Assembly (NCBI GenBank): GCA_016748015.1
Contig: JAAOMT010000718.1
Coordinates: 235,738 to 299,737 of the forward strand
Source of the DNA: Geosiphon pyriformis
Lineage: Eukaryota; Glomeromycota; Glomeromycetes; Archaeosporales; Geosiphonaceae
Reading direction: 5' to 3'
Length of the DNA: 64,000 nucleotides
Shown in pieces: positions 6,608 to 63,273 of this stretch. Under the pieces are notes generated by a model. That model saw only the letters and a program-made list of their open reading frames with translations. It ran no database searches and was not told the origin of the DNA. Position 1 is the stretch's first letter; each line of letters begins with the position of its first letter. The translations under genes were made by a program, and so were the position numbers.

Positions 6608-7613
6608 TGTTACCAGAGGTTTTTGGTCTCTTTTCTTGAATGTTGTAAATATTTGTTGGTTGCAAATTCACGTTTTCTAGAAGTAGTTGAACCTCCAATA
6701 ACTGAATTTATCTTCAAATTATAGAAGATAATTTGAACTTGCTGGGCTTATAAATGGAATGGCCAATTCCTTGTCAGTTACTTTATGTAGTTACGTTGTA
6801 GTAAATGTCAACTCTTTCCCAGAAATTGCTTGTTTAGAAGCTCACTAAAAATGTGTAGTTACTTTGCTGTGAAAGTCAACTCTTCTACAGGAATCTTATC
6901 TGTAGACTACCTTAATAATTGTAATAAGAAAAAAAAAAAAAAATAAAAGAAATGTAAAAGAAATAGGATTTTATCAAGGGAAACGTTTTCTATCCAAGCC
7001 TGGAGTCACTAATAGTTTACTGAAATTGGTAGCTAATTAATTTCAGGGGTTTTTGGGATTTTCCAAGTGCAATAATTAAAGAATTTGGTTTTTTGAATTA
7101 TTTGATTTTTTTATTTTTTCTTGTGTATATAAAAATGGTTCTAAGTAATAAATCTAAAGTAAGATACATTTTCTTAAAGAGAAAAGCTTTTTTTATATAC
7201 AACTTGTTGTAGTACTAGTCTATGAACTTGCACTTTTTCTTTTTGCTCAAATTTTGGCAAACTAAAGATACATTTTGATGAACTACAAGTTATTTTTGCT
7301 GAACTCTTGATTAATTTGTATGAACTATTCATAATTTCAGTGAATTTCTGTAAATTTTGGTGAATTTCTTATAAATTTTGGTGAATTTCTGTAAATTTCA
7401 GTGAATTTTAGAATGTTACAAAGTTCAGAGTATTGTGTAATTTGATCATCCTACTTTCTGTTATACTAATTAGATTATTTTAATTGAATCGTGATATGTG
7501 ATAATTGATTAAATAATAAATGATAATTTGAAATGATATTAATATACTAATTAATTATAGGAATTATAAGGGTAATTTCATGCTAATTAATAGCTAAAAT
7601 TCTACTGGTAACA
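6608..7613 (-). repeat. LTR of gypsy B, about 1.0 kb
   Basis: Minus-strand ends are TGTTAC (plus 7608-7613 reads GTAACA) and GTAACA (plus 6608-6613 reads TGTTAC). The LTR contains a poly-A run at about 6929-6943 and an internal tandem array at 7340-7410. It lies directly upstream of the LINE, so B probably inserted at or near the LINE 5' end. Confidence 0.7.
7340..7410. repeat. Tandem repeat, about 20 bp unit, inside LTR of gypsy B
   Basis: Three and a half copies of GTGAATTTCTGTAAATTTTG-like units lie head to tail, with one unit one base longer. Neighbouring sequence carries looser copies (GAACT...AATTT). No coding content is seen. Confidence 0.8.
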
Positions 7614-7759
7614 GTGGGTGCAGTGAGTTTTGATACTTTTATTATTTCAAAAATAGAGAAAACATTGAGAAATCTTTCAGTTACAGTTATGAGCCTTTCA
7701 GCTAAAATGAAAAATAATGGTTCTGTTTCTACTATTTGTTCTTTTCAATGAGTGAGTTA

Positions 7760-10700
7760 GTATAGAAATTTGGTACATGTAATGTCTGAAATATTAATGT
7801 TCCTGCCAAGCAAGTAGACATTGTACATTGGCATGTAAATTCTGGTAATATGGTGTCTTTTGTCACAGAAACTAAATTGAAGTCCAGTGTTAAGCTGTGA
7901 ATTACTAATAAGTTTAAAAGTGTGCATGTCTTTACATTGAGTTTGGAAGAAAGTTTTCTTAGTGCTGGGATGGCTGTTGTTACAGGTGACAATTTCCAGT
8001 GTTAAATTAAATATGAACCCATAACTTGGTGCTCAAAGCTATTCTCGTTGTCAATAATCTGAAGATTTGGTATCTGAAGGTTTTGTATTTGAAGAGTTTG
8101 GTTGAGTTCTTTGTATAATGGACAGAGATTCAATAGTAATAGTTTTTTCCATAGCTTCCCAAAACCGCAGTTTTGTCAATTTCTTTCCCAGCTTGATGGC
8201 TGGTATTCCTTCTGGTAAGTTATTCTCAATCAATTGTTCTACCCTTATTTCTGGGTCTTTTACCAGTCATGTTTATTCTGACATTAGTGCCCCACATGTT
8301 AATCCTCAATAAAGTTAGTAAACAACAATAAAATTAAAGCAAGAAAATAAAGAAAAAAAAATAAAATAAAGAAAGAAAAGAAATAAGCCAAGGCGATTTA
8401 CAAGTTAGTATTCTGTTAATAGCCCTGATCAAGAGCTATTGTTCCAGTGTGATTAAGTATCAATTACTATCAACATGAAGTATTGATAGTGAAAATGGAT
8501 TTGAGATAACAAATAGTTATTTATTAGATACTTGTAATTTGGAGAGTTGCTTAGATTAAATCTAAACTAAGAGGTCTGTCTTTTCAGCTTTTAATTCTGC
8601 TGCTATATATACATAATTGAGATTCCTCAATTTCTTGATTCTTTATGACAAGAATCCTGGAATTCTGGAATCCTACGATTCCTCGTCGGAGAATCCTAAA
8701 ATTCCTGGAATCCTGCAATTTTTGAGAGGAATTCTGGAATTCCACATTTACTACACCTATTTCTGATTGGCTAATAATTATGCTAATATATTTCTTATAT
8801 ATTTTATGAGTAATACTGTTATTATGGACAATTCTCTGGCTTGGTATATGTCTAAGATTGAGGAGGTGCCTGGTTGGGTTATTTTGGTATAGCTTTTGTT
8901 CAAAGACAAGCTTTCTGTAACTGTACTTGGTTTGTATACTGGTGCTTTTTATAGCATTTGTTTTGGGCAGATGTCTGAAGTAAACTTTATTATTGCTAAG
9001 GCTGTTAACTCCAGCACTTTTGTGGTTCTGGGTGGGGATTTTAATAAATATGGGTCTGGGAAGAGTGTGAGTTTCAGGTTCTGCCTAAATCTGGGTCTGG
9101 TCAATTTGTTTGCTGGTCATTGTTTGGTTAATACTCTTATTTGGTGCAATTTAAAAAGTGTTGAAAAGACTATTGATTACATTTTTGTTAGTAATAGTCT
9201 GTCTTCCACTGTTGCTAAACATTGGGTTGGTTTTGTTTCTGAATTTTTTGATACAGATCACAATACTGTTGCTGTGTCAGTTGGTTTAGGTGGGCTCTTG
9301 GATGTTCAGTTGAATAGTTTGTGTAAGCAGACTAATAAAGATTGTTGAAGATTCAAAATTAAAGATGCAGACAGTATTGGATGGTTTTATTTTAAGGACT
9401 GCTCCTCCACCAGGATTTTGATGATAAAGGATAAGTTTTTTGCCACTGCTGCTGATCATAATTTGGATGCTATATAGTCACTGCTGGAAAAGGCTTTGGT
9501 GGATTCTGCTAACAAGATATTTTTTAAACATTGGTTTAGTGTTTTTCAATGTTCAAAGAATATGCAATCTTCTAAATTTCTGGGATTAGAGTTGTTGGTT
9601 GTTAAGATTGTCAAAAAACTGGGCTCTGCTGATATTCTTGGTTTCAATTGTCTTGCAAAGAAGTGGGCATCTTTGAATGCTGTTAATACTCTTGCTTTAG
9701 AAAACATAGTTTGCAATGGTCAAAAATCGGAGGATATTCTTAAATATTTGTTACTTATCAGAAAGAGGTATAGGAAGTTTAAATTACATAAATCAAAATT
9801 GGCACAGGAAGCTTCTATTAAAGAGGCTGTCAAAAAGTACATGGAGAAGTTTTGTTTGGATAAAGAAAGTATGATCAAAAGTGTCTTAAATAGGCCTTTT
9901 CAAAAGGTGGTGTTGGATCATTTGGTGGTCAATGATGAGTTGATTTTGGAACCAGATAAAATAAGATTGAGTGTCAACAGTATCATGGAAGGTTGGATGA
10001 GGAAATGTGTAGTGTCTTCTGTGCTTTCTGGTCTCTGGACTTATCAATATGCACCTTTGGACTATGTTAGAGATAGTACCTTTTCTGGTGTGATGGATGT
10101 AGTCAGTATAGATGAATTGCTTTCAGTCATTGGTGGTCTGCCTGATGGCAAAGCCACTGGCCTGTCTGGCATTTCTAATGAACTATGAAAACATGGTAGT
10201 GAAAAAGTATTAAAGTGTCTTTTGGTGTTGTTGAACATGTGTTTATCTGTTGGTATGGTGCCTGCTTTGTGAAGGAAGGCATGGGTTTTGATGATTCCTA
10301 AGTCTTATGACTGGGATGGGGTCTTTACAAACACTTGACCTATTGCTTTAATTGAAACTGCTAAGAAAATTTTGTCTAAAATTCTGTCTGATCATATATC
10401 ATTGGCATGTAGCAAGTTTGGTATTCTCCAGGGTGATAACTTTTTAGTGCTTCATGACATGTCCACGCAGTTCCTGGTGTTTATGGTTGGATCAGTAGTG
10501 GAGGATGCTTTCGAGAAAAACAGAGAAGTTTAATTGGTGTTACAGGATATGTAAAAGGTGTATGATTCTGTTAGTTGGCATTATTTAAGAGCTAGCTTAT
10601 GGCACATCAAAATGTGTGAAAGATTCATTGAGTTTTTTGGTAATATCTATAAAGACAGAGTTAACAGAGTAATGACTAATTTTGGCTTGTCAGATGGTTA

Positions 10701-13281
10701 TAGAGTTCATGATGGTTTAGATTAAGGTGAAGTTTTTTTGTCTCTTTTGTGGAGGATTTTTTATGATCCACTCTTATGCAAAGTGAAAAGACATGAGCAG
10801 TTGTGTAGGTACTACATTGATTCAAAGTTTGTTGTGAAAATGGGCAGGGTCAAAGGTGTTGGTGGAATAACATGTTATTTCGCAGCTGGCACCTTTGTTG
10901 ATGATACAATTTGGGTTGAGAATTGTCAAGTCTTTACTCAGTATGCTCTGAAAATTGCCAGTGAATTCTTCAAGATTAACAATATTTCTATTAATAATGA
11001 TAAAATGGTGGGTATTTTCATTAATCAGAGTGTTAAAGTTGCCTTTCTAAATATTTGTGGTCAGCCGATTTCTATTGTCAAAAAGGGCAAAGTACATCAT
11101 TATCTGGGGATCTTTTTGTCTATGGAGAGATTGTCTAAGCCAAGTATTGCTAAGGCTTATTCAGATATTTGTTTTTTTGTTAATGTTGTGCTCAGAAAGG
11201 CTATTACAGATAAACAGTACTCATACTTGGTTTTTGTTATTTTGCAGCCTATTATTAGCTATTGAACTCAATTTAGTTATGTCTTATCTGGTGTTTGTTG
11301 CAAGTGGAATGTTATGGTTAGGAAAGATCTTAAATTCAAGGCTGGTCTGTCTTGTGATTTCTCCAATGCTGCTTTGCATCACTTTTCTTTGTATAACTTG
11401 AAGACTTTCGAGCAAGTGTAGTCTGAAAGGAAGATTACTGCTCTGATGTTTTTTTCTAATGCCTCTGGTGTTCTTGGGTGTTTGTTTAATCATAGATTTT
11501 TGGACTTGCAGGTTCTTGGTTGGGCTTTTCTGAACCCACTCCAGTTTCCTGTCAAGCTGCATATTAGTCCAGTTGACAATTTTTTGGCTGAAATTGTAAA
11601 GATTTTTTTGGACAATAAACTTTCTTTGGTAAATAACCTTCCCAATGCCTTTCATAGTCCTGGTCATTTTTTGATGTTGTTAATTCTTGGAAATTTTTTG
11701 TATTTTAATTCTGTCCAATCTCTAAAGAGATTTGGGATTGCTTTTGGTAACTGTCTCTTAAGCAAGAAGGGTAGTGTGCTTGATTGGAAAACCTTTTGTC
11801 ACTAGAAGAGATTGGATCCTTGAGGCCTTGTACCTCACTGGTTCTCAATTGCTTCTGAGTTTTTGTTGGTCCATAGTTCTTTTTCACTCAGCTCTACTGG
11901 GTCTGGTCAGTCTGGTGGTTTGAATATTTTAAAGTCTGATGTGTTTTTTGCTGTGAAAGATGACTTGCATGATGTTTGGTCTGATTGCTTTAAGGTATAC
12001 ACTGATGGGTCTTTGAAAGGTGCTGGATCTGCTGATGTCATTTGTGGTGCTACTGCATATTTTCTGGCTTTGGATTTGAGTATTGGAGTTGCAGTTTATG
12101 GTCTTTTATTATCTACTCTTGCTAAGTTGCAAGCCATTGCTTTGTTTCTTAAATGTGTTCCATCTTCATGTAAGTTAGTTTTGCATATTAATAGTCAGAC
12201 TGTTATCAACTCTTGCTTGTCAGAACTGTCATCTATTGTGCCTGATTTTTGAAACTGGTGCTGGTTGAAAAGGCATCATATTTTTAATTTAATTTGGAAT
12301 AAGGATCTTAAGGTGGTTTGAGTTAAGGTTAAAGGGCATTTTGGTATCTCTGATAATGTTAAGGCTGATTTGGTGGCTGGGGAGGCTGTTCAGTCTCCTT
12401 TTACACTGCTGGTTGAAGTTTGTAAGCAGTTTTTGGTGGCTGAAAATACTGCAGTTTCTGGCAACGCTTGTTATTTTGTTAGGGACATTTTCCAGTCTAT
12501 TAGTTATGCTTACTGGGAGGCTGGATTTGAGTATGGTGTAATTCCTAATGGGCTGGTTGGAAGTGTGGACTGGATTTCTACTGTAAAAATGTGACATCCC
12601 AACTCTCATATACTTGCTGAATTTACTAGTTGGAGTTCTTTGAACTTACATACTTATTTGATGAAGGCTGTATATAAGCATCTTCCAGTGGTGATTTGAA
12701 AAAGATTGTATAATAAGAGGTATTTTGGTGTGCTGTGCTTGCTGTATGGTGAGGTGGAGTTTTCAGATCATGCCTTTACATGTGCTTAAAATGTAGCTGT
12801 TCATAATAAGATTCTGGTTGAGGCTTCTGTCTATTGGGTTTCTGTGGCTGATGTTTGTGATTTGTCATCTTCCACTATTTTGTGGGCCTGGTCTGTCTGT
12901 TTTTTGGATGTTGGCTTGTATTTTATTGTTTGTAAAGGTTTTGTGCTGAATGAGTGATATGAAAAGGCTCAAAATGTTTTTAATAATAAGAAGCAGACTG
13001 TTGGTAAGATTGTCAATTTTGTTAGGTTTGTTATAAAATTGTATTATGTGAAAGTGTGGTTGGTGAGGTTTGAACACAGAGTGCAGATGGAAAAAGGTGG
13101 CATGGTTGTTAATGGGAATGTAATTTCTGGTCTTTTCTGTAGTGTGTCTTTAATATTGTCTAACAGGATGGTCAGGTTATTTGGTGTTGTCAAATTTTTT
13201 GCTGTTAACTTTGGTTATTGTAGGCTGTGTTGTTTTTTCTCTGGTTTGGATAGCAATGTATATGTTAATATAGGTGTGTAG
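7760..13281 (+). pseudogene. LINE ORF2: endonuclease, reverse transcriptase, RNase H
   Basis: After removing the LTR at 7978-8815 and one 4-bp target copy, a single frame runs for about 4.7 kb. The endonuclease is split by the LTR: FVTETKL before it and VVLGGDFN, KTIDYIF and DTDHN after it. RT shows the GLSGISNEL and IALIETA regions and an intact catalytic FVDDTIW at about 10891. RNase H shows VYTDGSL (about 11995) and VKVKGHFG with ADLVAGEA. The C-terminus ends LDSNVYVNIGV at 13281. About 20 in-frame stops occur, for example at 9346, 10186, 10270, 11263, 11803, 12250, 12319, 12592 and 12958, and nearly all fit W-, R- or Q-codon loss by C:G-to-T:A change. I see no frameshift. The element is dead. 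Confidence 0.93.
7978..8815 (-). repeat. Solo LTR (gypsy, family of elements C and D) inside the LINE
   Basis: The ends are TGTTACA at 7978 and a decayed GAGTAATA at 8815. The sequence matches, in reverse, the LTRs at 47773, 48914 and 50471, including the GGAATTCC-rich array at about 8639-8745. It is flanked by CTGT at 7974-7977 and CTGT at 8816-8819, a 4-bp target-site duplication. The LINE endonuclease frame resumes after it. No internal element sequence remains, so LTR-LTR recombination is likely. Confidence 0.9.
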
Positions 13282-13284
13282 TGT

Positions 13285-13319
13285 TGCCTTGACTGGCCCA
13301 AATGGCTAGTCACATGTAG
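13285..13319 (+). other. Conserved LINE 3'-UTR hairpin motif
   Basis: This is the copy that follows the full LINE ORF and so defines the motif as part of the LINE 3' end. The core TGGCTAGTCACATGTAG resembles the copies at 40340, 41045 and 47533. In the 40340 copy the core is a perfect inverted repeat, GTGAC-TG-GTCAC. Non-LTR elements often use a 3' structure to recruit their RT; that role here is inference. Confidence 0.7.
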
Positions 13320-13405
13320 TAAATACATGAGTTACGTTTAGTTTAGACCACTTAGTTTGGTTCTATGTGCTAGATAGCAGTTGGACTTTGCTTGTTAAAA
13401 TGCTT

Positions 13406-15060
13406 AATAATAAAAAAAAATACTATAGTTTTGTTTATATTTTTCTTAAAAAAAAATGTTAATTTAATAATTTTTTTAAATTTATTTATTAAAAAAAAAT
13501 TTTTATTTTTGTTATAATAAATCTACTTTTTATTATTAATAAATTAATATTTAATACATAAAATTTTTTAATGGATATTTGTATATTTTTTTAATAATTT
13601 TAAAGTTAATTTAAATTTATTTATTATCTATATTATAATTCAAATTATTTTAAAAAAAACTATTTATTTTGTTAATATTAAAATAGTTTGTTTTAAAAAT
13701 ATTTATTTTTAAATTTAAAAAAGTATTGTTTTTATTATTAGTATTATAATTATTATTAACCAATAAAAAATTGTTTATTATTTTATTTAAATTAGTTTTT
13801 ATATTAAAAAATTGTTTAAAACTATTTAAAAATTTATTTAAATTCAAGTTTAATTTATTATGTTTAATATTGTTAATAAAAACTTTTTGTTTTTGTTTAA
13901 AAGTATTATTTATAAAGCCTGAAAAAAAATTTTTGTTAAATTTTTTTAATTATACTATTATTATTAATAATAATAATTAATTTTTAAATAAAAAAATTTA
14001 ATAAAATTTATATATAAAAAAAAACACAAATAATTTTGTGTAGTTATAAAAATAAAAATAAAAAAAGTTTGTAAATTGTATTTTTTATATTCTTTAATTT
14101 AATTCTAATTATAAAAATATCAAAAAAATTTAATTTATACAATTTGGTTAAATAATAATTAAATAATTAATATAAAAATATAAAACAATAATATAATTTA
14201 CAAAATAATTTATGTAAATTTAAGTTAAATTTTAATTAATAATATTAATAAATTATATAATACTTAAAATAAAGTTTTAATATTAATTGGTTTAAATTTA
14301 AAAAAATAATAAATATTAAAATTAAAATTATTTATTTAATTCTTTTAAAAATTAATAATAATTAAATATAATATTAAAAAATATAACAATTTTTAAAAAA
14401 TATTATTTTAGTTTTTTAATATTAATTTAACTTTTTAAATAAATAAAAATATTTAATAATTAAATAATAATACATATTAAAATATAATTTATTTTGTTTT
14501 TTAAATAGAAAACAATTTGTTAAAAAAATACTAAATAATATAATTAAATATTAATTTGTATTTTAATAAATTTATTATTGTTATTATTATTTAACTTATG
14601 TTAAATATTATTGTTTATAGCTAAATTATTTTGGTTAAAATAATAAAACAAAACTAACAAAAAAACCAATTTCAAAACAGTAATAATAAATTTAAATTTT
14701 AAAAAACACAAAATTGGTGTTTTAAAAATATTAAAAGAAAAGCTTTTCTAAAATTACAAAAAAGTTTAAAGTTAATAATAATAGTAATTGTTTTTTTTTT
14801 GGCCATTTAAAAAATAATAGTAATAATAGTTAAAAAAACAATAAATTTATTATTAATCTATTAATTATAGTTATAATAATATTAAATTGTTTTGATTTTT
14901 AATTAATTAAAAATTGCTTTAAATTTATATTATTTAAGAAAAATACTCTGATTGTGAATAAGATTAAAAAGTTTTTTATTTTAATTAATTATTAAATTTA
15001 CTGAAAATATCAATATTAAATATTGAGAAAAATATAAATTTTATATTAAAAATCAGAAAA
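13406..15060. other. Very AT-rich block, 1.65 kb, no intact gene
   Basis: Almost only A and T, with an abrupt start at the LINE 3' end and an abrupt end at about 15061 where gene-like composition returns. The plus strand is T-rich up to about 13950 and A-rich after about 13980. Open frames here (for example minus 13650-13847) are Lys/Asn/Phe/Leu-rich and not trustworthy. By analogy with the 41-47 kb block it could be a hypermutated retroelement, but I could not align it to the LINE by eye. Confidence 0.6.
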
Positions 15061-15411
15061 ATTTTAGTGGCCGACTATTACAGCACTACTAACTATTTTA
15101 GGACGGCCCCAAAGCAGGGGCTATATCTATTTGTTTACTGAGACAAGAGTTTTTTGCTTTCGCTGTGGGGTTTCCTGCTCATTAATCACACTTATATTTG
15201 TTCTATCAAAGGCGCAAAATAAAGGCTTGAAAGTTCCCGAATTAAGCCTTCTTTGGGTTTTCTAATTTTTCTCCCAATAATCGAGGAAGCTCATCTGCTT
15301 CGATAAAGACGCGTTTTCTACTAATATCTCTCCTTCTGGAATTACTACTCATTACAACTTCGACCGGCTTTTTCATCTCCATTTGCGGAAAATTGGTTTG
15401 ATTAAGTCAAC
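15061..15411. other. Upstream region of the kinesin gene
   Basis: Composition shifts sharply to gene-like at about 15061. I see no open frame or RNA gene. It probably contains the promoter and 5' UTR of the kinesin gene, but no clear TATA box was found. Confidence 0.4.
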
Positions 15412-39708: not shown

Positions 39709-40339
39709 AGAACAGCGTCTTTTTTACCAGTCATCCATCCACTTTGGATTAGAGTTAGCAGAACGAAACAAAAGAAGTGACTTAAAAACAAACTGTCCTC
39801 CCATCAACGAAAATTTCACGAGTTATCCTATGATATTGAGAATACCAATTTCTAAGTCTCAACAGCGACTGAAGGGTGTCAGTAAACTGAAAATGAAATA
39901 ATAGATACATTAAATGGATTGGAATACTTATCAAAGAACATTTTCTTAACATATCGTCTTCCCAATCGCGAAACCTCGTACTGGATGCGAACTATATTAT
40001 AATGATGTTACTTTCTTTAATGTACATTACCTGATTTTTTGATTTTTTTAGAAATCTTTTAACAAAGTACTTGTAATCATATTAATTCCCATTGATCTTA
40101 TTATATAAAGACATAAATTTACATTCTCTTTTGATTTGCGACTAAATTTTTCTGAAATACAAAGTTTTAATAGCATTCTTTAGTTCACGTTAATAATATA
40201 AATACATAACGCAACATTAGATTATTAAAATTTAGGCATAAAAATGGTTATGTGTGTTTAAGTCTTTGATTTTGTATTCAATAATTTAACAAAAAAAAAC
40301 AATTGTTGCAATAGTTTTATTTGATAAATAATTTTTTTA
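39709..40339. other. AT-rich 3' flank of the NIPA gene
   Basis: No gene is supported. Composition becomes more AT-rich to the right, up to the first LINE remnant. Confidence 0.45.
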
Positions 40340-40397
40340 GCCTTGATTGGCTCGGGTGACTGGTCACGTGTAGAAAGTGCATGAGCTGTGTTGTTAA
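40340..40397 (+). mobile_element. LINE 3'-end remnant (3' UTR hairpin only)
   Basis: The conserved hairpin motif (perfect GTGACTGGTCAC core) and some 25 bp of adjacent 3' UTR are similar to 13285-13340. No coding part remains. It is followed by an A-run and (TA)n. Confidence 0.7.
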
Positions 40398-41044
40398 AAA
40401 AGATATATATATATACGTATACATCAAATACATTATATCTTTAAATTTTAATTATTTTATTAATACAGTTTTAATCCAAAAAATCCCAACTCTATAAATT
40501 TAAATTAAATTAATATAATCGATAATTATATTATATGTTTTTGAAAATATAGAAAACTTCCAATGATAAATATGTAAACCATTTTTTAGAAATGAAGTAA
40601 TTAATTTCTTTATAATCATTTATTATAATAATTTGTTTAAATTTTGTTATTTCGGGGTTTTTTTAAATTAAAAAAGTTTCATGTATAAAATGTATATATA
40701 TATATTTATACCATTATAAAAATCTTGTATATGAAAATTATTTAATAATTAATAATAATGAATATTTTAAAATAAAAAATATTTATTATTACACATTCGA
40801 TAAAGGCACTAAATATTTTTATCGTTTGTTTAAAATGAAATTATAACAAAAAAATTAAAAAATTATTATTATTATTTAGATAGCGACATCTAAGATTTTC
40901 TAATAGAAAACAAACAATAAACCTTTTTATTTATATGAGTTTTTTTCCTTTTCTTTCTAAAGCATTCAAATGAAATAAATAAATTAATAAATTAATAAAT
41001 AAATAAAATGAATTTATTATTATTATTATTATTATTAAATGCTT
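40398..41044. other. AT-rich spacer with simple repeats between two LINE ends
   Basis: It includes (TA)n near 40405, AAATTAAT-type repeats near 40975-41010 and (TTA)n at about 41013-41035. No gene. Confidence 0.55.
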
Positions 41045-41225
41045 ACATGTGACCAGCCACTCGAGCCGGCCAAGGCTACACTACTGCGCAAACCAAAACC
41101 AACTGCAAAAGCTTCAACAATGCCGAGCATGTGAACCATTCCATTAGACATACTATTAGATAAATCATGTAAATTATAGAGAGCAAATATATTATTGCCA
41201 ATTAAACCACTTTTCTTTATTGCAG
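41045..41225 (-). pseudogene. LINE 3'-end fragment: end of ORF2 and 3' UTR motif
   Basis: On the minus strand it reads SNGMVHMLGIVEAFAVGFGL, which aligns with the LINE C-terminus at about 13165-13225 (SNRMVRLFGVVKFFAVNFGY). The last ~20 codons are deleted and the hairpin motif follows at 41045-41077. It joins directly to the hypermutated block on its right. Confidence 0.8.
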
Positions 41226-44200
41226 ATCTATATTTAGATCTATATAACTACATTTTTTTTCTATAATTTATTATTAATTCTCATGTAAAAGAGACCAAAG
41301 TAAACAGACCAGTTTAATATTTTTGAAGATTAATACCATCTCAGCAAACCAAATTTTAAAAACAAAACTCTTACATAAAGCAATATATAAAACATTATCT
41401 AATATATAAGAAAAAAAAAATTATAGAACCAAAAATAACAAAAACAAAATACCAGTAAATAAAATCCAAAACTTAGCCAAATCTGTTAACAACTTTATAT
41501 AAATTGTTGTATCTAATTTGCATATAAAAACATAATCCAAAAACTATATTTTATTATAATAAAAACAAAAAATTCAAAAGTATTATTTATTATATAACTA
41601 TTTTTAAATAACAATAAGTAAATATTTATAAACAACTTTATTCAAATAAGTACATAAACTAGTCATAAATTTACTAGTAAAATTTGATTATATATGAAAA
41701 TTAAAATATTAAATCAAAAAATACAACACTAGTTTATATTTTTAATTATATTATTGATTATTATATTAGTATTTAATCTAATTATCTATTAAACATAACA
41801 TATTATTTAATATATATCACAAATAAAATAATAAGTATTATCTAAAATTGTTATTTTATTAGATTAAAAAAACTTTTTACAAATTAAAACAAAAAAATAC
41901 AAAAATAAATAAGTAGTCTTATTAATTAAATTATTAATAATTTTATTGTTAATAATATTAAAATAATTTTTGATTTTATACTAAATAATTAAAATGGTTT
42001 TATTATAAATAGAATTAATAAATTTGCTTTTTTTTAATTCAATAACAATTATAAAAATTTGACAATCTTAAATTAAATTTAAAAATACAAGTATTAAAAG
42101 TTATTTAACTATTAAAATAAACATTAATTATATTATTATAGTTAAAAATCATAGTTTTTATTAACTATTACATATATTAATTACTAATATCATATAATTA
42201 ACCACTCTATTTTTAAGAAATAATCAATAATCTAATTAATAATCTGATTATTAATCTAACTATTAACTTAATTATTAATCTAATTAATAACTTAATTAAT
42301 AACTTAATTGTTAACTTAATTACTAATTTGGTTATTAATTACTTTAAATAGATATATAAACAATATGTTTTTTAGCTTTAAAAAAACATGTTTTAATTTA
42401 CAAAAATATGTTTTAATATATAAAACATATACAAATCAAAATAATAATAATTTTTTTTAAATATTTAATTTTTTCTAATTTGTTTATTTTTTTCAATTTT
42501 TTTTAAGTATCTAAATATTTTGTAATAAAAAATTATTTGTTGATATTTATTTGTAATTATTAATATTGAAAATATTAAATAAATATTACTAAAAAATATA
42601 ATTAATATTTAATATTGAATTTTAAAAGTACTAATATAAAACATAGAATTATACTAATATATTATTTTTTGTTAATAATATAAATTATTATTTTATTTTT
42701 AAATATTCTTATTATTTTTTAAAAAAAATAACAGCTAAAATATTTATAAGACTAATTTTGCACATTAAATTTATACTAATTTAATTTGTTCTTTAAAGTT
42801 GAATTTTCTTTTGATTGTTTTTATTATTATATAATTTTGTTTTATTTTGTTATTTATTAACTTGTTATTCTAATTTATAACAATATTAAATAATAATATA
42901 TATTGAAAAACCAAAAAAATAGCTTGTAATTTAATTAATATAGATAAATCTAAGCTAAAAACATAAATACTAATATTTAAATTCAAATTCTTAAAAATAC
43001 TATAATATTATTAACTATTTTACAAAAACCCAAACTTTTTAATGAATTATTCATGCAAATACTAATAATAAATAAATTTGTTTTTATTAAATACTTTTTA
43101 ATTACAAAAAAAACTACACAAATTATGTATATTTTAATTATTTTAATCATAATTAACAAATAAAACAGTTATATTTAAACTTTTATTTTAAAAAAATTTA
43201 ATAATAATATTAAATTATTAAGACATAAACTCTTTAAAATTTAGTTTTTTCTAGTAATAAAAAGTTTTTTAATTGAAAATTAGTTTATGTTTATTAATTA
43301 AATATTTACTAAAAGTCACACCAAAATTTTTTAAAGAATTAATTATTACATAATATAATAATATATATTAAAATATTAAATATAAAAAAGCTACCAATGA
43401 AATAAAAAGCCATAAGTAAAAAATTTACTAAAATAACATTATAATTTAATAGAATTTTAACTATATTAACCAAAAAATTATTAATTAAACTAATTTTTAA
43501 CTTAATAAAAAATTGCAACAAATTTTTAGAAACTTAATTTGCAATTTACAAATTCAAAAATTAGTGCTTAAAAAACAAATTAATAATATTAAAAATATTA
43601 AAAAAAATTAGCAATAATACAATTTTATTTTCAGCTTAAATTTGTTTAAAAAGTTTTAAATTATACAAAAAAAATAATATAAAGTTTTATTTAAAAAGTT
43701 TCTTAAAAAATTAGCTTTAATTTTTAAGTTTTTACAAATTATTATATTTTATTTTAATACATATTTTTAAAAATAAAACTAAATAACAATTAATTACAAT
43801 ACAACAGAAATTAAATACAAAAATTATTTATTTAAAATAGTTTTTTAAAATTATATTGGCAAAAATTTAATATTAAAATAAGCTTTAGTTAAGTTAAACT
43901 TAAAAAACTATTTATTGGCAAAAAAATACCCAAACATCTGTATAACTTTTTTTTTAACAATTATAATTAATAATTTACTAATAAATAACGATGTATTAAT
44001 AATTTATTAATTAATAAAAATATTTTTAATTTTAAAAAATTTACTTATAATATTAAGAACATACTGTATTATAAATTAATTATTGCTAATTTATATAGTT
44101 TTATTAATAAAAATACTGATAATTAAAAAATATAAAATTTGTTTAACTTTTTACATAACTTATTTTGGTTACAAATTTAATATTAATACAATATTTATAA

Positions 44201-45300
44201 AATTATTTATATTTTTAATCTTATATAATAAAAATTTATAAAAAATTTATTATAGTAAAAAAGAAAAAATCTTATTTTAATTTAAATTATTATGTAATTT
44301 ATAGTTATTTATAAATTTAAAATCTATTATAATATAATTAATTTTATTATTATAGATATTACCAAAAAACTTAATAAATTTATTATATATTTTAATTTTT
44401 TGTAAACTGTTTATTAAGTAAGATCAATTAATCAAATTATATACTTTGTACATATTGTTATAAGTAAATTTAATAATATATAGTCATAATATTTGGTATT
44501 TGTAATTAGATAATAAAAGCTGATTAGATGTAAATAAATTGTTTAATTAATTATATTAATTATTAATCTCTAAAAAATTTTTGGTCTAAAGTTATATTTA
44601 TTGAATTTTTTAATTATAAGACACAAAAATAATATTTCTATAGTTATAATATTATAATTGTATTTCTTTTTAAGCTAATTAAGTACAGTTATTAAAGTTA
44701 GTAATATTTTTTTGCTTTTTTAATAAGCTAATAAAATAAAGTTAATATTTAAATTTAAAGTGGGCTTTTTTCTTTTATTAAACTATTACAAAGTCTATTT
44801 TCAGTCGATTTTTAATGTTATTGCTTTACAAAAAAATAAAAAAATAAAAATAAAAATAAAAATAAAAAAATAAAAATAAAAAAATAAAAAAAACTTAATA
44901 TTTTATTAATTATTATAATTAAAAATAATTGATCTAAGTTGTTAAAATTCCAAAAGCAGTTATATTAATTACATCTGGCTTAAACAAAAATAAACAAACA
45001 ATTAATTAAGTTTTATTAATTAAAATGTTTTAAGATTATAGACTTATAAATAAAATAATAATATTTTATTTAGTAAATTTAAAATATGATAGTTAAAAAA
45101 GTTTTCTTAAACTAAAAATAGAATAAAAATATTTAATAAATTTTTGTATTTTTTTTTCTATTTACTAAAACTAATTATTTTTATATATATTTTCTAGTTT
45201 TATAAAATTACTTTTAATTACATATTATTACTAACTATTACTTATTATTTTAGTTATTGCTTTATTTGTTTATATTATAATTAGTTATTTTTAGCTATTA
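41226..45300 (-). pseudogene. AT-hypermutated LINE ORF2 (minus strand)
   Basis: This block looks like featureless A/T DNA, but its minus strand retains LINE ORF2 in the right order and spacing. At about 44.0-44.07 kb it reads QYVLNIISKFFKIKNIFIN, against QYALKIASEFFKINNISIN in the LINE at about 10.94-11.0 kb. At about 43.86-43.96 kb TKAYFNIKF and LYLISVVL match AKAYSDICF and SYLVFVIL (11.15-11.25 kb). At 43.34-43.52 kb LQFFIKLKIS...NFLVNIVKI matches LQFPVKLHIS...NFLAEIVKI (11.54-11.61 kb). At about 43.25-43.3 kb FGVTFSKYLINKHK and KTF match too. Q and W codons are replaced by stops. A poly(A)n-T simple repeat (44830-44900) and a 12-bp-type array (42220-42350) lie inside. Confidence 0.85.
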
Positions 45301-47458
45301 TTAATAATTTTGTACTTTCTTATATTATTTTGTATTAATTTATGTTATTTCATATTATTTTATATTATTTTATATTATTTTGTATTCTTATATAATGATC
45401 ATGATTTTTTAATTATTTAGATTGTTTTTTTACTTGGATAATATTATTTTTTTTTTAAAAAATTGAGCTTCTGCAAAATCATATTTATCTTCAAAAATTT
45501 TTTCCATATAATATTTTAATGCTGTGTTAAATATTGTTTTTTTTAATATTATAAATTAAAAATTTGTTATCTGTTTAATATTGTTTATTATAATTATATT
45601 TAATATATTGTCTAATAATATGATTAAACTGTATTTAAATATTAAATATAGTTAATATATTGTTTTGTAATATAATATTAAATTGTTTTTTTTTAACAAA
45701 TTTTTCTGTTGAATATTTATTTGTTGTTATTTATGTATAATGTTTATAGTTTTAGTTTTTTTTTTAATTTTAAAAAACTAGTATGTTAGTAGAAACTTTT
45801 TTTTATTTTATGAAGATTTTTAATATATATTTTTTAATAATTGGTTTTATAATTAAGTTGTTTAAAGCTTTTTTGATTTTTTTTATTGTTTTAGTATTTT
45901 TTTTTTTTATATAAAACTAGGAATATTTAGTTTTAATTAAATTTTTGTCTTCTTTTTCTTTGTTTGTATTTCTGTATTATATTTTTTTTATTAATTGTAA
46001 CTTTATTGGTATTATAAATTATTAAATTGTTTTAAATAGTTGTAAAAGTTTTAGAACATTATCTAAAAAATTTATACTTAAATTGTTTTTTTTTGCTTTT
46101 TTTTTAATTTTTTGGTGTTTATATATCTAATTTACATAATTCAAATTTTTTGTTTATAAATTATGTTTAATTATAATGATTGGTTCTAAATTTTATAAAA
46201 TATTTTCGAATTTAATTAATAAAATTTGTGTTTTTAGTTAAAATATAATTGATAATGATTTTTGTATTATATAATAAAGTTTTAAATAATTTCTATGAGT
46301 GGTTTTTTTTTTAAATTTTGTTTTTTAATTGTAATTTGTATGTTTTATTTTCAACAATTTTGTGTATATAATATAGTCTGTTCTATTTTAAATCAAATTT
46401 TTTATTTTATTGCTTTTTTGCTTTGATACAATATAATAATACTTTGTTTTTAATTTTCAATTTAATTAATTAGTTAAATAACTAATTATTATGATTTTTT
46501 ATTTGTTATTTTTGTAAATTACTAATATTGTTAACTGCTGTTTTTTATTTGTTTTTCAGTATTTTTATGAGCTAATATTTTCTTTGATGTAAGATAACTT
46601 TAAAGTTTTCTTTAATAATTGTTTTTGTTAAAAAAAAAAGTATTTCTAATTTAATAAACAATATGGTTTTTTTTATATATTAATTCAAATAATATAAATT
46701 GAATAATATTTTGCTTTAATATTCAGTATATAACTAATACTAAAAATATAAATAAATCCTATTCTTGTGTATTTTTGTAACTTATTTTTGCTAAAGCTTT
46801 ACACAATGTTTAATTAAATTGTTTTATTAATTCATTTATTTACAAATAATATAAAAATAATAAAAGTTATTTGATTTTAAATTATTAACTTAGTTTTGCC
46901 AAAGTGGTATTGACAAAATAAGTTTTTTGATCAAATAATAATTTTTTTGAATATTTATATTAACAAATTAAATTTTGGTATATAAATTTAACTATTGTTT
47001 GAGTGTTTGTAACTTGAATAGCTTAAACTTTTGGCTATTTGATAAAATAGTTTATGATGACAACAATATATTGATTTTTTTTAAAGTAATTAATAAAAAT
47101 CTAACCAAATTAATCTTAATTCTATTAAATATATTTTTGATTAAAATAAGTTAAAATAATTCTATTATTTTGGCTTTTTTTTTCTTTGATAGAAGTTATA
47201 ATCAAAAACATATTTAAATATATCTTTATATATTGTGGACTAATAATATAAATTAATTGTTTTTTCTAATATTATGTTTTTATTAAAGTATTTAGTAATT
47301 GAATTTAAATACATATTGAACAAAACAGTTTTTTTTTGTGTCTTTTATTATTTATTGTAATGTGTTATGGTTTTGGTATTCTTATTAGTATAAATATTTA
47401 TTGTAAATAAAATAATTTCTGGTTTGTTTTTATATGTTATTTTTTTTTTATTTGCTTT
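45301..47458 (+). pseudogene. AT-rich block, probably a plus-strand hypermutated LINE fragment
   Basis: From about 45.3 kb the plus strand turns from A-rich to T-rich. LINE coding strands are T-rich, so this suggests the opposite orientation. At about 46.99-47.15 kb the plus strand gives FNYCLSV and LNIFLIKIS, resembling LNMCLSV and LSKILSDHIS of the LINE RT (10.23-10.4 kb). Near 47.35 kb IVMCYGF resembles IKMCERF (10.6 kb). The matches are weaker than in the left half. A TATATTATTT-type simple repeat lies at about 45325-45395. Confidence 0.5.
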
Positions 47459-47772
47459 ACAAGTGAGGTCTAAACACTATCTAGTGCTATACATCAAAGA
47501 ATTGATCTAAACTAGGTGTAAATCATGTATTTTCTATATGTGACCAGCCACTCAGGCCAATCAGAACAACACTAAACAGCTATATGAACCAAAACTGAGT
47601 TACTTACACCTGAAAAAAACAAACAAGATTTGTGAAAACCAAAACGAACACCAAAAGCATCAGCAATGCCAAGCAATTTGATTACTCTAGCTGACAACTC
47701 AGAGGCCAAACCAGAAACCGAGATGGAAATCAAACTGTCAAGGAAAATCAACCCATATTTCTCCATATACAC
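47459..47772 (-). pseudogene. LINE 3' fragment: last 66 codons of ORF2 and 3' UTR
   Basis: The frame at 47572-47772 ends SGVSNSVLVHIAV and aligns with the LINE C-terminus (ASELSARVIKLLGIADAFGV). The hairpin motif is at 47533-47567 and the 3' UTR matches 13320-13405. The 5' side is cut by the LTR of element C at 47773. It is much less mutated than the adjacent block, so it is a younger insertion. Confidence 0.85.
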
Positions 47773-48622
47773 TGTTACAGGTAACTATTTCTGGTGTTGG
47801 ATTAAATAACAAACCTGTAACTTAGTGCTCAAATCTAGTTACAGTTAATAGTGATCTGAAGGTTTGTGTCTGAAAGATTTGTATCCAAAGGGTTTGGTTG
47901 AGTTCTTTGTATAATGGACAGAGATTCAATGGTAATAGTTTTATCTGTAGCTTCCTGAAACCGCAGTTTTATCAATTTTTTTCTTAGCTTGATGGCTGGT
48001 ATTTCTCCTGGTAAGCTATCCTCAATTGAGTGTTTTACTCTTATTTCCGAGTCTTTTACCAGTCACGTTTATCCTAATGTCAGTACTCTGTGCATTAATC
48101 CTCAATAGAGTTAGTAAACAACAATAAAATCAAGGCAAAAAATAAAGAAAAGAAAAGAAAATAAAAAAAGAAAAGAAATAAGCCAAGGCAATTTGCAAGT
48201 TAGTATTCTATCAATAGCCATGATTAAGAGCTATTGTTCCAGTGTGATTAAGTATCAATTACTATCAACATAAAGTGTTGATAGTGGCAGCAGGTTTAAG
48301 ATAACAAACAGTTATTTATTTGTGGTTTGGAAAGTTGTTTAGATGAAATCTAAACTGAGAGGTCTGTCTTTTCAGCTTCTAATCCTACTGCTATATATAC
48401 ATAATTGAGATTCCCCAATTCCTCAATTCTTCACAACAGGAATCCTGGGATTCTTGGAATTTTGCAATTCCTTTGAGAGAATCCTGTAATTTCTGGAATC
48501 CTGCAATTCCTAAGAGGAATCCTGGAATTCCACATTTTACTATGTCTACTTCTGATTGGCTAATAACTATGCTAATATATATTCCCTATATTTCTATGAG
48601 TAATATTATTCCCTCCTTTTAA
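47773..48622 (-). repeat. 3' LTR and polypurine tract of gypsy C
   Basis: The LTR runs from 48605 (decayed TATTACTC start) to TGTTACA at 47773. The purine tract AAAAGGAGGGAATAA lies just above it (48606-48620). The sequence matches the LTRs at 7978, 48914 and 50471, with the GGAATTCC array at about 48413-48535. Confidence 0.85.
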
Positions 48623-55546: not shown

Positions 55547-56249
55547 TGTTACGGGTTGGAGTAACAAGCTAACAGATAGCAAGGAAGAACAGGATTGTAG
55601 GGTGATGGAAATAATCAAAGAGAAATTCAACTTTAAAGAGCGAATTGAATGAGTATGAATTCAATGTGCAAGATCAGTCTCATAAAATATCTCAGTTGCT
55701 ATTCTTTTCAAAGATAACTGGGGAATCTAAAAGTAGAAGGATAGTCCGTACTGTCAACAATTGATCACTATTGGTATAATTCTATGTCTCATGTCGGTGC
55801 TCTTAGAATTCAATATCAGGTATCAACTTGTGCTTTTCAGTCATGTTTATTTAAATAATCTTCAAATGCTACAATTATATACGTTAAGAAAAGGCCAACA
55901 AGTAATCTTTTATCTTAAGATGTTTGGATACTTGAAGGTAAGAAAAGAAAAATTAGCAATAAAAGAGTGATTGAGATAAAAGTTGTTATTTTTATTTATT
56001 TGATTCTTGTCTAAGAAATGATTTTCTACAGCTAAGAGACTTATTGCTTATATAGCTATTGAAAATAGTCAATGACCAGGTTAATGACTAGGTTAATGAT
56101 TAGGTCAATGATCAGGTCAATAATCAGGTCAATGGTCAGGTCATTGATCAGGTCAATGATCATTATCTAAAAATAGAGTGGCTAATTATATGACATCAGT
56201 GACTAATACATGTGATAACTAATAAAAATTATGGGTTTCAACCGTAACA
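55547..56249 (-). repeat. 3' LTR of gypsy E (703 bp)
   Basis: Plus-strand ends are TGTTAC at 55547 and GTAACA at 56249. It contains eight 12-bp units at 56068-56163. Apart from that array it closely matches the 5' LTR. The purine-rich GAAGAGAATGA preceding it on the minus strand is the likely polypurine tract. Confidence 0.92.
56068..56163. repeat. 12-bp tandem array, eight units, in the 3' LTR of E
   Basis: Units of the form GTCAATGATCAG follow head to tail with a few C/T differences. The 5' LTR has four units at 63140-63187. Confidence 0.9.
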
Positions 56250-62601: not shown

Positions 62602-63273
62602 AGAGAGCACCACTTTTATGTTATGTGTTGGAATAACAAGCTAATGGATAGCAAAGGAGAACAGAATTGTAGGGTGATGGAAATAATCAAAAGAAAATTC
62701 AACTTTAAAGAGCAAATTAAATGAGTATGAATTCAATGTGCAAGATCAGTCTCATAAAATATCTCAGTCGCTATTTTTTTCAAAAATAATTGGGGAATTT
62801 GAAGGTAGAAAGATAGTCCGTACTGTCAACAATTGATCACCACTGGTATAATTCTATGTCTCATGTTAGCACTTTTAGAATTCAATATCAGGTATCAACT
62901 TGTGCTTTTCAGTCACGTTTATTTAAATAATCTTCAAATACTACAATTATATACGTTAGGAAAAGGCCAACAAGTAATCTTTTATCCTAAGATGTTCAGA
63001 TACTTGAAGATAAGGAAAGAGAAATTAGCGATAAGAGAGTAATTGAGATGAAAGTTGTTATTTTTATTTATTTAATTCTTGTTTGAGAGATGATTTTCTA
63101 CAGCTAAGAGACTCATTGCTTATATAGCTATTGAAAGTGGTCAATGATCAGGTCAACAGTCAGGTCATTGATCAGGTCAATGATAACTATCTAAAAATAA
63201 AATGGCTAATTATATGACATCAGTGACTAATACATGTGATAACTAATAAAAATTATGGGTTTCAACCGTAACA
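62602..63273 (-). repeat. 5' LTR (655 bp) and primer-binding site of gypsy E
   Basis: The LTR is 62619-63273; its inner end reads TGTTAT (one transition from TGTTAC). On the minus strand TGGTGCTCTCTATGAG follows a 5-base gap, the likely primer-binding site. Four 12-bp units lie at 63140-63187. Confidence 0.88.
63140..63187. repeat. 12-bp tandem array, four units, in the 5' LTR of E
   Basis: Same unit as in the 3' LTR but four copies instead of eight. Confidence 0.9.

Follow-up and report, generated by a model that had tools for sequence, protein, structure and literature searches.

Transposon-directed C:G-to-T:A hypermutation in Geosiphon pyriformis and an AT-rich block composed of LINE and Gypsy remains

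Introduction

In repeat-induced point mutation (RIP), as described for Neurospora and other Ascomycota, C:G pairs in repeats are converted to T:A on both strands, leaving AT-rich blocks filled with stop codons. The process prefers CpA. In Neurospora, duplicated DNA of any kind, gene copies among it, is hit once it exceeds ~400 bp and 80% identity, and the methyltransferases RID and Masc1 carry QT or ET in motif VI (PMC6572847). Here we analyse a window of 64,000 nt from the 124.7-Mb, 406-contig assembly of Geosiphon pyriformis, a fungus placed in Archaeosporales, Glomeromycotina, and closely related to the arbuscular mycorrhizal fungi; all coordinates refer to this window. A first-pass annotation had read an AT-rich block at 41226-45300 as a long interspersed nuclear element (LINE) erased by C:G-to-T:A hypermutation with the signature of RIP, which, if confirmed, would imply a repeat-recognition and cytosine-mutating system and possibly a sexual stage. 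Glomeromycotina are an early-diverging lineage long considered asexual. We find that C:G-to-T:A hypermutation directed at transposons is real in this species, and that the block is a composite of LINE and Gypsy remains and no single LINE. In the copies examined, the change is directed and in excess over transversions in both LINE and Gypsy families, shows no codon-position effect, reaches all CpN contexts and leaves four pairs of gene duplicates unbiased.

Several described systems share part of this pattern. Vertebrate-type decay of methylated CpG depletes transposons of CpG, as is also seen in Geosiphon, but here non-CpG cytosines are massively hit as well and Gypsy siblings differ by ~15-50 transitions (ts) per transversion (tv). 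In Zymoseptoria tritici, a dim2-dependent mitotic C>T mutator of repeats has been shown experimentally, with more than 98% of its C>T changes reported at CpA and CpG not highly mutated (PMC8016269). Geosiphon resembles it in the targeting of repeats, the dominance of C>T and the presence of putative DIM-2-like genes, but in its Gypsy elements CpG is the most and CpA the least affected context, and whereas the Zymoseptoria mutator acts in mitosis, the Geosiphon process is known from the sequence of one assembly. In Microbotryum (Mvio), transposons are reported to carry RIP-like CpG C>T changes without RID, in the presence of a Masc2-class (DNMT1) enzyme (PMC4352252). The transposon bias, the apparent lack of RID, the preference for CpG and the enzyme class recur in Geosiphon, but for Microbotryum a CpG signature is all that is reported, whereas non-CpG C>T in Geosiphon Gypsy elements runs at 46-70 times the transversion rate and most G+C has been lost.

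In a 2025 kingdom-wide screen, ascomycetes were the only fungi with an enrichment of RIP-like signatures (PMC12543289), and work on arbuscular mycorrhizal fungi reports finding no RIP in Gigaspora (PMC8647823, PMC7082362). No earlier report of such hypermutation in Glomeromycotina turned up in the literature listings and passages searched; an earlier mention in the paper describing the Geosiphon genome (Curr Biol 2021) is possible.

Composition of the AT-rich block

The reference LINE of the window lies at 7000-13400 on the plus strand (ends approximate) and is itself depleted in CpG, with an observed/expected ratio (o/e) of 0.08 over 7700-13400, and interrupted by in-frame stops. Searched with it by tblastn, the minus strand of the block yields collinear segments at 44474-43671, 43674-43369, 43388-43239, 42037-41732, 41702-41313 and 41298-41092, with group E-values of 1.0e-48 and 7e-31 unadjusted and 5e-27 and 8e-22 with composition adjustment. 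The same query against the window reversed without complementing reaches at best 0.02 and 0.59, respectively, set against 9.4e-49 for the forward window. The alignment, stops and segment order given in the first-pass annotation were right. The first three segments make up a hypermutated relic of the ORF2 reverse-transcriptase region at 43239-44474 (minus strand, GC ~0.11), which blastn also aligns with the LINE copy L073 at 67.5% identity over 1302 columns (E 9e-102; L-numbers denote fetched loci and C-numbers contigs). The other three form a downstream part of ORF2 at 41092-42037 (minus strand), similarly hypermutated, where the blastn match of 41658-41203 to L073 (E 4e-11) is near the noise of the reversed control. 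Without controls, blastn of such AT-rich DNA is unreliable, reversed sequence reaching E 3e-12 among the matches listed; we therefore relied on tblastn with reversed controls and on long blastn matches.

Between the two LINE pieces, at 42141-42873 on the minus strand, lies a hypermutated Gypsy long terminal repeat (LTR), found as an inverted blastn match (138 ts, 41 tv) to 55556-56242. The latter falls in the first LTR (55547-56249, plus strand) of a Gypsy element at 55.5-63.3 kb, whose second LTR, its direct repeat, is at 62619-63273 (plus strand). The nested copy is presumably a solo LTR. The LINE pieces on its two sides are ~1.2 kb apart in the block versus ~0.45 kb in the reference LINE, a widening that fits the insertion of this LTR. 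AT-rich DNA continues past the block to ~47.4 kb in a 200-bp profile and includes a hypermutated relic of Gypsy pol, from the integrase region, at 46163-47326 (minus strand; tblastn match to the Gypsy element at 0.2-5.4 kb with E 3e-47, the reversed control reaching 0.13 at best); the 5' half of the LINE found no match in 44480-47490. Much of the block thus derives from a LINE, as first proposed, but with a Gypsy LTR inside it and a further Gypsy relic extending to 47326.

A LINE 3' end does stand beside the block in the same orientation, as had been described. This tail (41040-41225, minus strand) has near-normal GC, has kept its CpGs and abuts the AT-rich part, as judged from the sequence, the 200-bp profile and a weak tblastn segment at 41080-40688. 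Next to a hypermutated relic, it looks like a young 5'-truncated LINE copy or a conversion tract.

Substitutions in the LINE part of the block were counted over columns common to at least 14 of 15 LINE copies with GC of 0.40 or more. C>T stands at 0.78 and G>A at 0.66, against 0.039 for T>C, 0.031 for A>G and 0.141 for transversions, with 12 indel events in 1.26 kb. An ungapped 306-nt segment aligned to the window LINE gives the same picture (C>T 36/50, G>A 35/59, T>C 6/131, A>G 3/66). In the nested LTR, with C or G set as ancestral wherever a transition separates the two reference LTRs, we counted C>T 62/89 and G>A 85/133, but T>C 6/199 and A>G 3/221 (9/420 for the reverse direction), with transversions at 41/642; its GC is 0.107 versus 0.30-0.31 in the reference LTRs. 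For the Gypsy pol relic, the values over 789 nt ungapped, into which three query codons entered twice, are C>T 0.59, G>A 0.72, T>C 0.07, A>G 0.04 and 12.7% transversions. Stops have arisen from one CAG and one TGG in the 306-nt LINE segment and from five CAA/CAG and four TGG codons in the Gypsy relic, in line with the directed loss of G and C and the conversion of glutamine and tryptophan codons noted at first pass.

Other LINE copies provide a scale for the transversions. Levels of 0.12-0.15 were found in 11 of 13 copies with GC of 0.17-0.23 (the exceptions being L027 at 0.24 and L048 at 0.18). Copies with about twice the GC of the block thus have nearly equal transversion levels, and by this comparison the block has lost half of its remaining G+C with little added transversion, although L020 and L021, the other two most AT-rich copies, have 0.22-0.23.

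Transposon copies across the genome

Many contigs of the genome hold LINE and Gypsy copies with the hypermutation signature. Copies are graded in GC from 0.45 down to 0.11, most of the 52 aligned segments being ~1317 nt long, and CpG o/e in LINE loci including flanks ranges from 0.00 to 0.59. Over 1.3 kb, the 91 pairs among 14 GC-rich LINE copies differ on average by 0.0721 transitions and 0.0035 transversions per site, and the 12 pairs individually listed show 66-84 transitions and 0 transversions each. L028 and L030, siblings that are already decayed, are 245 ts and 6 tv apart, and the window LINE differs from its siblings L050-L053 and L058 by 144-187 ts and 6-12 tv; between the full copies L072 and L073 there are 1226 ts and 159 tv in 7049 columns, 104 of the transversions lying in two end bins. 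Among the Gypsy siblings, the most extreme pair is L004 and L005, with 200 ts and 4 tv in 3.47 kb. The two LTRs of the Gypsy element at 55.5-63.3 kb, presumed to have been identical at insertion, serve as an internal test of later change and are separated by 50 ts and 2 tv in one comparison and by 52 ts and 2 tv in another.

Singletons from five Gypsy copies comprise 312 C:G>T:A changes, 11 in reverse and 13 transversions, putting the directed class at 312/336 (93%). Nine young LINE copies yield 396, 90 and 42, respectively (396/528, 75%), most of the 42 transversions falling in L055, L060 and L065, and 15 LINE copies compared over 1.3 kb yield 130, 31 and 25. Measured against the more than 90% C>T of a dim2-type mitotic mutator of repeats, the Gypsy set lies above and the nine-copy LINE set below. 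Two further LINE sets were discarded, LINE_G1 (411:165:279) because L052 and L058 run out of the element and G5 because of Ns in L068. In the G2 set, 181 reverse singletons dominate, as expected if the majority base has already mutated, and it was not used as polarised evidence. L049 and L019, which duplicate copies of the window, were left out, as were L068 from the young-pair comparison and L069 and L070 from the 1.3-kb alignment.

In the 15 young LINE copies, the rates of derived C>T and G>A singletons are 0.0144, 0.0163 and 0.0142 at codon positions 1, 2 and 3, and the subfamily of the window LINE gives 0.059, 0.057 and 0.054. Rates this even indicate that the changes hit inserted copies and not the active lineage. 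The reverse singletons of the young set fall at third positions in 22 of 31 cases, as expected for changes in the active lineage.

Context and strand

Among Gypsy singletons, the C>T rate is 0.105 at CpG, 0.052 at CpC, 0.038 at CpT and 0.034 at CpA, compared with 0.00075 transversions per site, i.e. 140, 70, 51 and 46 times the transversion rate. Excesses of this size outside CpG cannot be explained by methylation of CpG alone, and we reject CpG-only methyl decay as a cause of the Gypsy pattern. The order CpG > CpC > CpT ~ CpA also differs from the CpA preference of ascomycete RIP, so that the dinucleotide check proposed with the RIP reading turned out against it. CpG leads in the grouped LINE comparisons too, with TpC slightly favoured on the 5' side.

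This TpC preference, together with the at least 12 of 91 young LINE pairs that have zero transversions, is what an APOBEC-like deaminase editing retrotransposon cDNA might leave. Against such editing, C>T (150) and G>A (162) are both frequent among the Gypsy singletons and form no strand runs, and we consider it extremely improbable. A search of the genome for APOBEC_N found no match and, as it found none in control genomes either, is uninformative.

Gene duplicates and RIP indices

A control comes from DNA outside transposons. Four disjoint pairs of gene duplicates (three kinase, one methyltransferase; 81-93% identity over ~0.9-1.1 kb) together show 231 ts and 192 tv, a ratio of ~1.2, with 28:41, 72:55 and 81:74 for the kinase pairs and 50:22 for the methyltransferase pair. 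Compared with two disjoint Gypsy pairs, the difference is marked (Fisher p 2.9e-44). The sample is small; three of 11 kinase comparisons are disjoint, and the seven kinase stretches were picked by place from 146 matches; the remaining eight comparisons gave 0.7-1.2 ts per tv. These duplicates lie within the size and identity limits of Neurospora RIP (~400 bp, 80%; PMC6572847) and yet lack a C>T bias.

The same control decides against a genome-wide AT pressure, under which dead transposons would drift, untargeted, towards an AT equilibrium. Stretches of ~10% GC do flank several transposon loci, and the transversion level of 0.14 marks the block as old, both as such drift would have it. It is contradicted, however, by the unbiased gene duplicates, by a stretch at 15.7-40.2 kb with several long open reading frames that retains a GC of 0.355 and a CpG o/e of 0.89, and by the young LINE pairs that differ by transitions only. 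We therefore reject it as very improbable.

Indices of RIP based on dinucleotides (TpA/ApT and related ones, with customary thresholds) were positive in 0 of 127 windows. The block itself passes on TpA/ApT (1.12), fails on the substrate index (0.80) and has a positive composite index; where mutated copies of 20-39% GC were examined, their composite index was below zero. Alignments between copies thus reveal strong transposon-directed C>T change that index methods miss in this window. Published RIP negatives for the lineage may share this blind spot, and a mutator invisible to the indices may be why the lineage has been scored as free of RIP.

DNA methyltransferases

The PF00145 profile gave 10 matches, at seven gene loci of the genome. 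Motif VI reads ENV in all six readable loci (C318 copy 1, C355, C327, C96, C307 and C346), and in C318 copy 2 this stretch is missing and stops are present; the QT or ET of a RID/Masc1-type enzyme was not found in the six readable loci among the 10 matches listed.

C355 combines a BAH domain with the catalytic domain and has its best matches in Glomeromycotina, one named Dim-2 and several named DNMT1; the best solved structure is a DNA (cytosine-5-)-methyltransferase, with DNMT1 a close second. Its paralogue C327 has a BAH match under the Pfam cut-off. By similarity, we tentatively regard the two as DIM-2-like. C96 resembles DNMT1 and has a replication-foci domain ~3 kb upstream, and C307 and C346 are presumably DNMT2-like, judging by their PPCQPYTR motif. 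C318 carries two copies of a short stand-alone methyltransferase (L011 and L013, ~32 kb apart), the second one damaged. With exons joined by eye, the enzyme matches Geosiphon pyriformis G9A89_012587 at 93% over 96% of the query; its eight best matches, which are the ones carrying an organism name among the best 120 of 5947, come from Geosiphon and seven others, all of genera that we place in Glomeromycotina. Pre-SET domains were found at three loci.

Strict RIP, a premeiotic process that senses duplications, depends on RID and implies a sexual stage, would account for the directed C:G>T:A change of repeats on both strands and at all codon positions alike. The ENV motif, the absence of a CpA preference (CpA being lowest in Gypsy and neutral in young LINEs), the sparing of gene duplicates and the lack of index-positive windows lead us to reject it as quite improbable. 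Nor does a sexual stage follow from the mutations, because a DIM-2-dependent C>T mutator of repeats is known to operate in mitosis (PMC8016269). The first-pass observation is thus confirmed and its interpretation partly supported: the hypermutation stands, RIP proper is not supported.

A second candidate is passive decay, in which dense methylation covers the cytosines of transposons whatever their context and these then deaminate spontaneously, with T:G mismatches poorly repaired and no mutator involved. The lead of CpG in Gypsy and in the grouped LINE comparisons, the gradation of copies in GC, the uncoordinated strands and the DNMT1 and DIM-2-like genes all agree with it. On the other hand, the non-CpG excess in Gypsy elements would require dense non-CpG methylation, and a 2026 review describes 5-methylcytosine as near-undetectable in early-diverging fungi (PMC13297926), whereas transposons of Rhizophagus carry CG methylation (PMC8647823). 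On balance, we think passive decay unlikely, though it deserves more weight than strict RIP.

A proposed methylation-linked route

The reading we prefer, at a probability of roughly 0.55, is that the block holds the remains of LINE and Gypsy retrotransposons which, once inserted, had their C:G pairs changed to T:A by a transposon-targeting process, with DNA methylation as the probable link. Methylation-linked mutation of transposon chromatin is the account with the fewest assumptions, and a DNA-methylation route without need of sex is the likeliest one. A DIM-2-like and DNMT1 route would methylate the cytosines of transposon chromatin, and its guide may be H3K9 methylation or small RNAs. Methylated or methylation-targeted cytosines would then turn to T far faster than other mutations arise, through a step that is active or assisted. 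Repeated each generation, with meiosis dispensable, such loss could proceed down to ~10% GC.

Several observations weigh against this reading. The LINE and Gypsy copies studied came from the top ranks of protein searches in which 150 of several thousand candidates were scored, and are a non-random sample. LINE singletons are milder than those of Gypsy in both sets. CpA, the site of the Zymoseptoria DIM-2 mutator, has the lowest rate of all contexts among the Gypsy singletons, and contexts are alike in the nine young LINE copies (0.026-0.028). Strand runs or clustering, sought in singletons as a sign of processive activity, were absent (z 0.55 and 0.19). As between a load that grows with age and one that comes in bursts, the correlations disagree (Pearson 0.80 but Spearman 0.14 in nine LINE copies; Spearman -0.21 in five Gypsy copies). 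The named matches of the putative DIM-2-like genes are more often DNMT1 than Dim-2, the BAH match of C327 is sub-threshold and the DIM-2 label expresses similarity only. Finally, the block has 14% transversions and 12 indel events, which make it old; these probably reflect subfamily divergence to a large extent.

A bolder possibility, to which we give somewhat less than even odds, is an independently evolved, RID-free cytosine mutator in Glomeromycotina that is specific to transposons, senses them rather than mere duplication, acts on every C context and possibly has its own enzyme, for which the short methyltransferase of C318 and the two DIM-2-like proteins are candidates. The finding also sets RIP-like mutation apart from both RID and sex. 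If the transposon-directed C>T process is a general defence, it would kill transposons irreversibly, explain the AT-rich blocks of the lineage and be open to an immediate check by comparing ts:tv between copies in the genomes of other mycorrhizal fungi.

Other sequences

Among class II elements, 18 MULE transposase matches were seen in the genome, with in-frame stops in 17 of 18; these elements may be mutated too. Right behind the 3' end of the window LINE, a block of 8% GC spans 13420-15070. With the transposon queries used, which for this block included transposon proteins, neither it nor 40201-41040 had a forward match at E<=1. A repeat of up to ~0.84 kb, with no obvious membership in the LINE, is present in at least four copies in the window, at 7978-8815, 47773-48605, 49801-48916 and 50947-50473; the copies occur in both orientations and are 72-83% alike.

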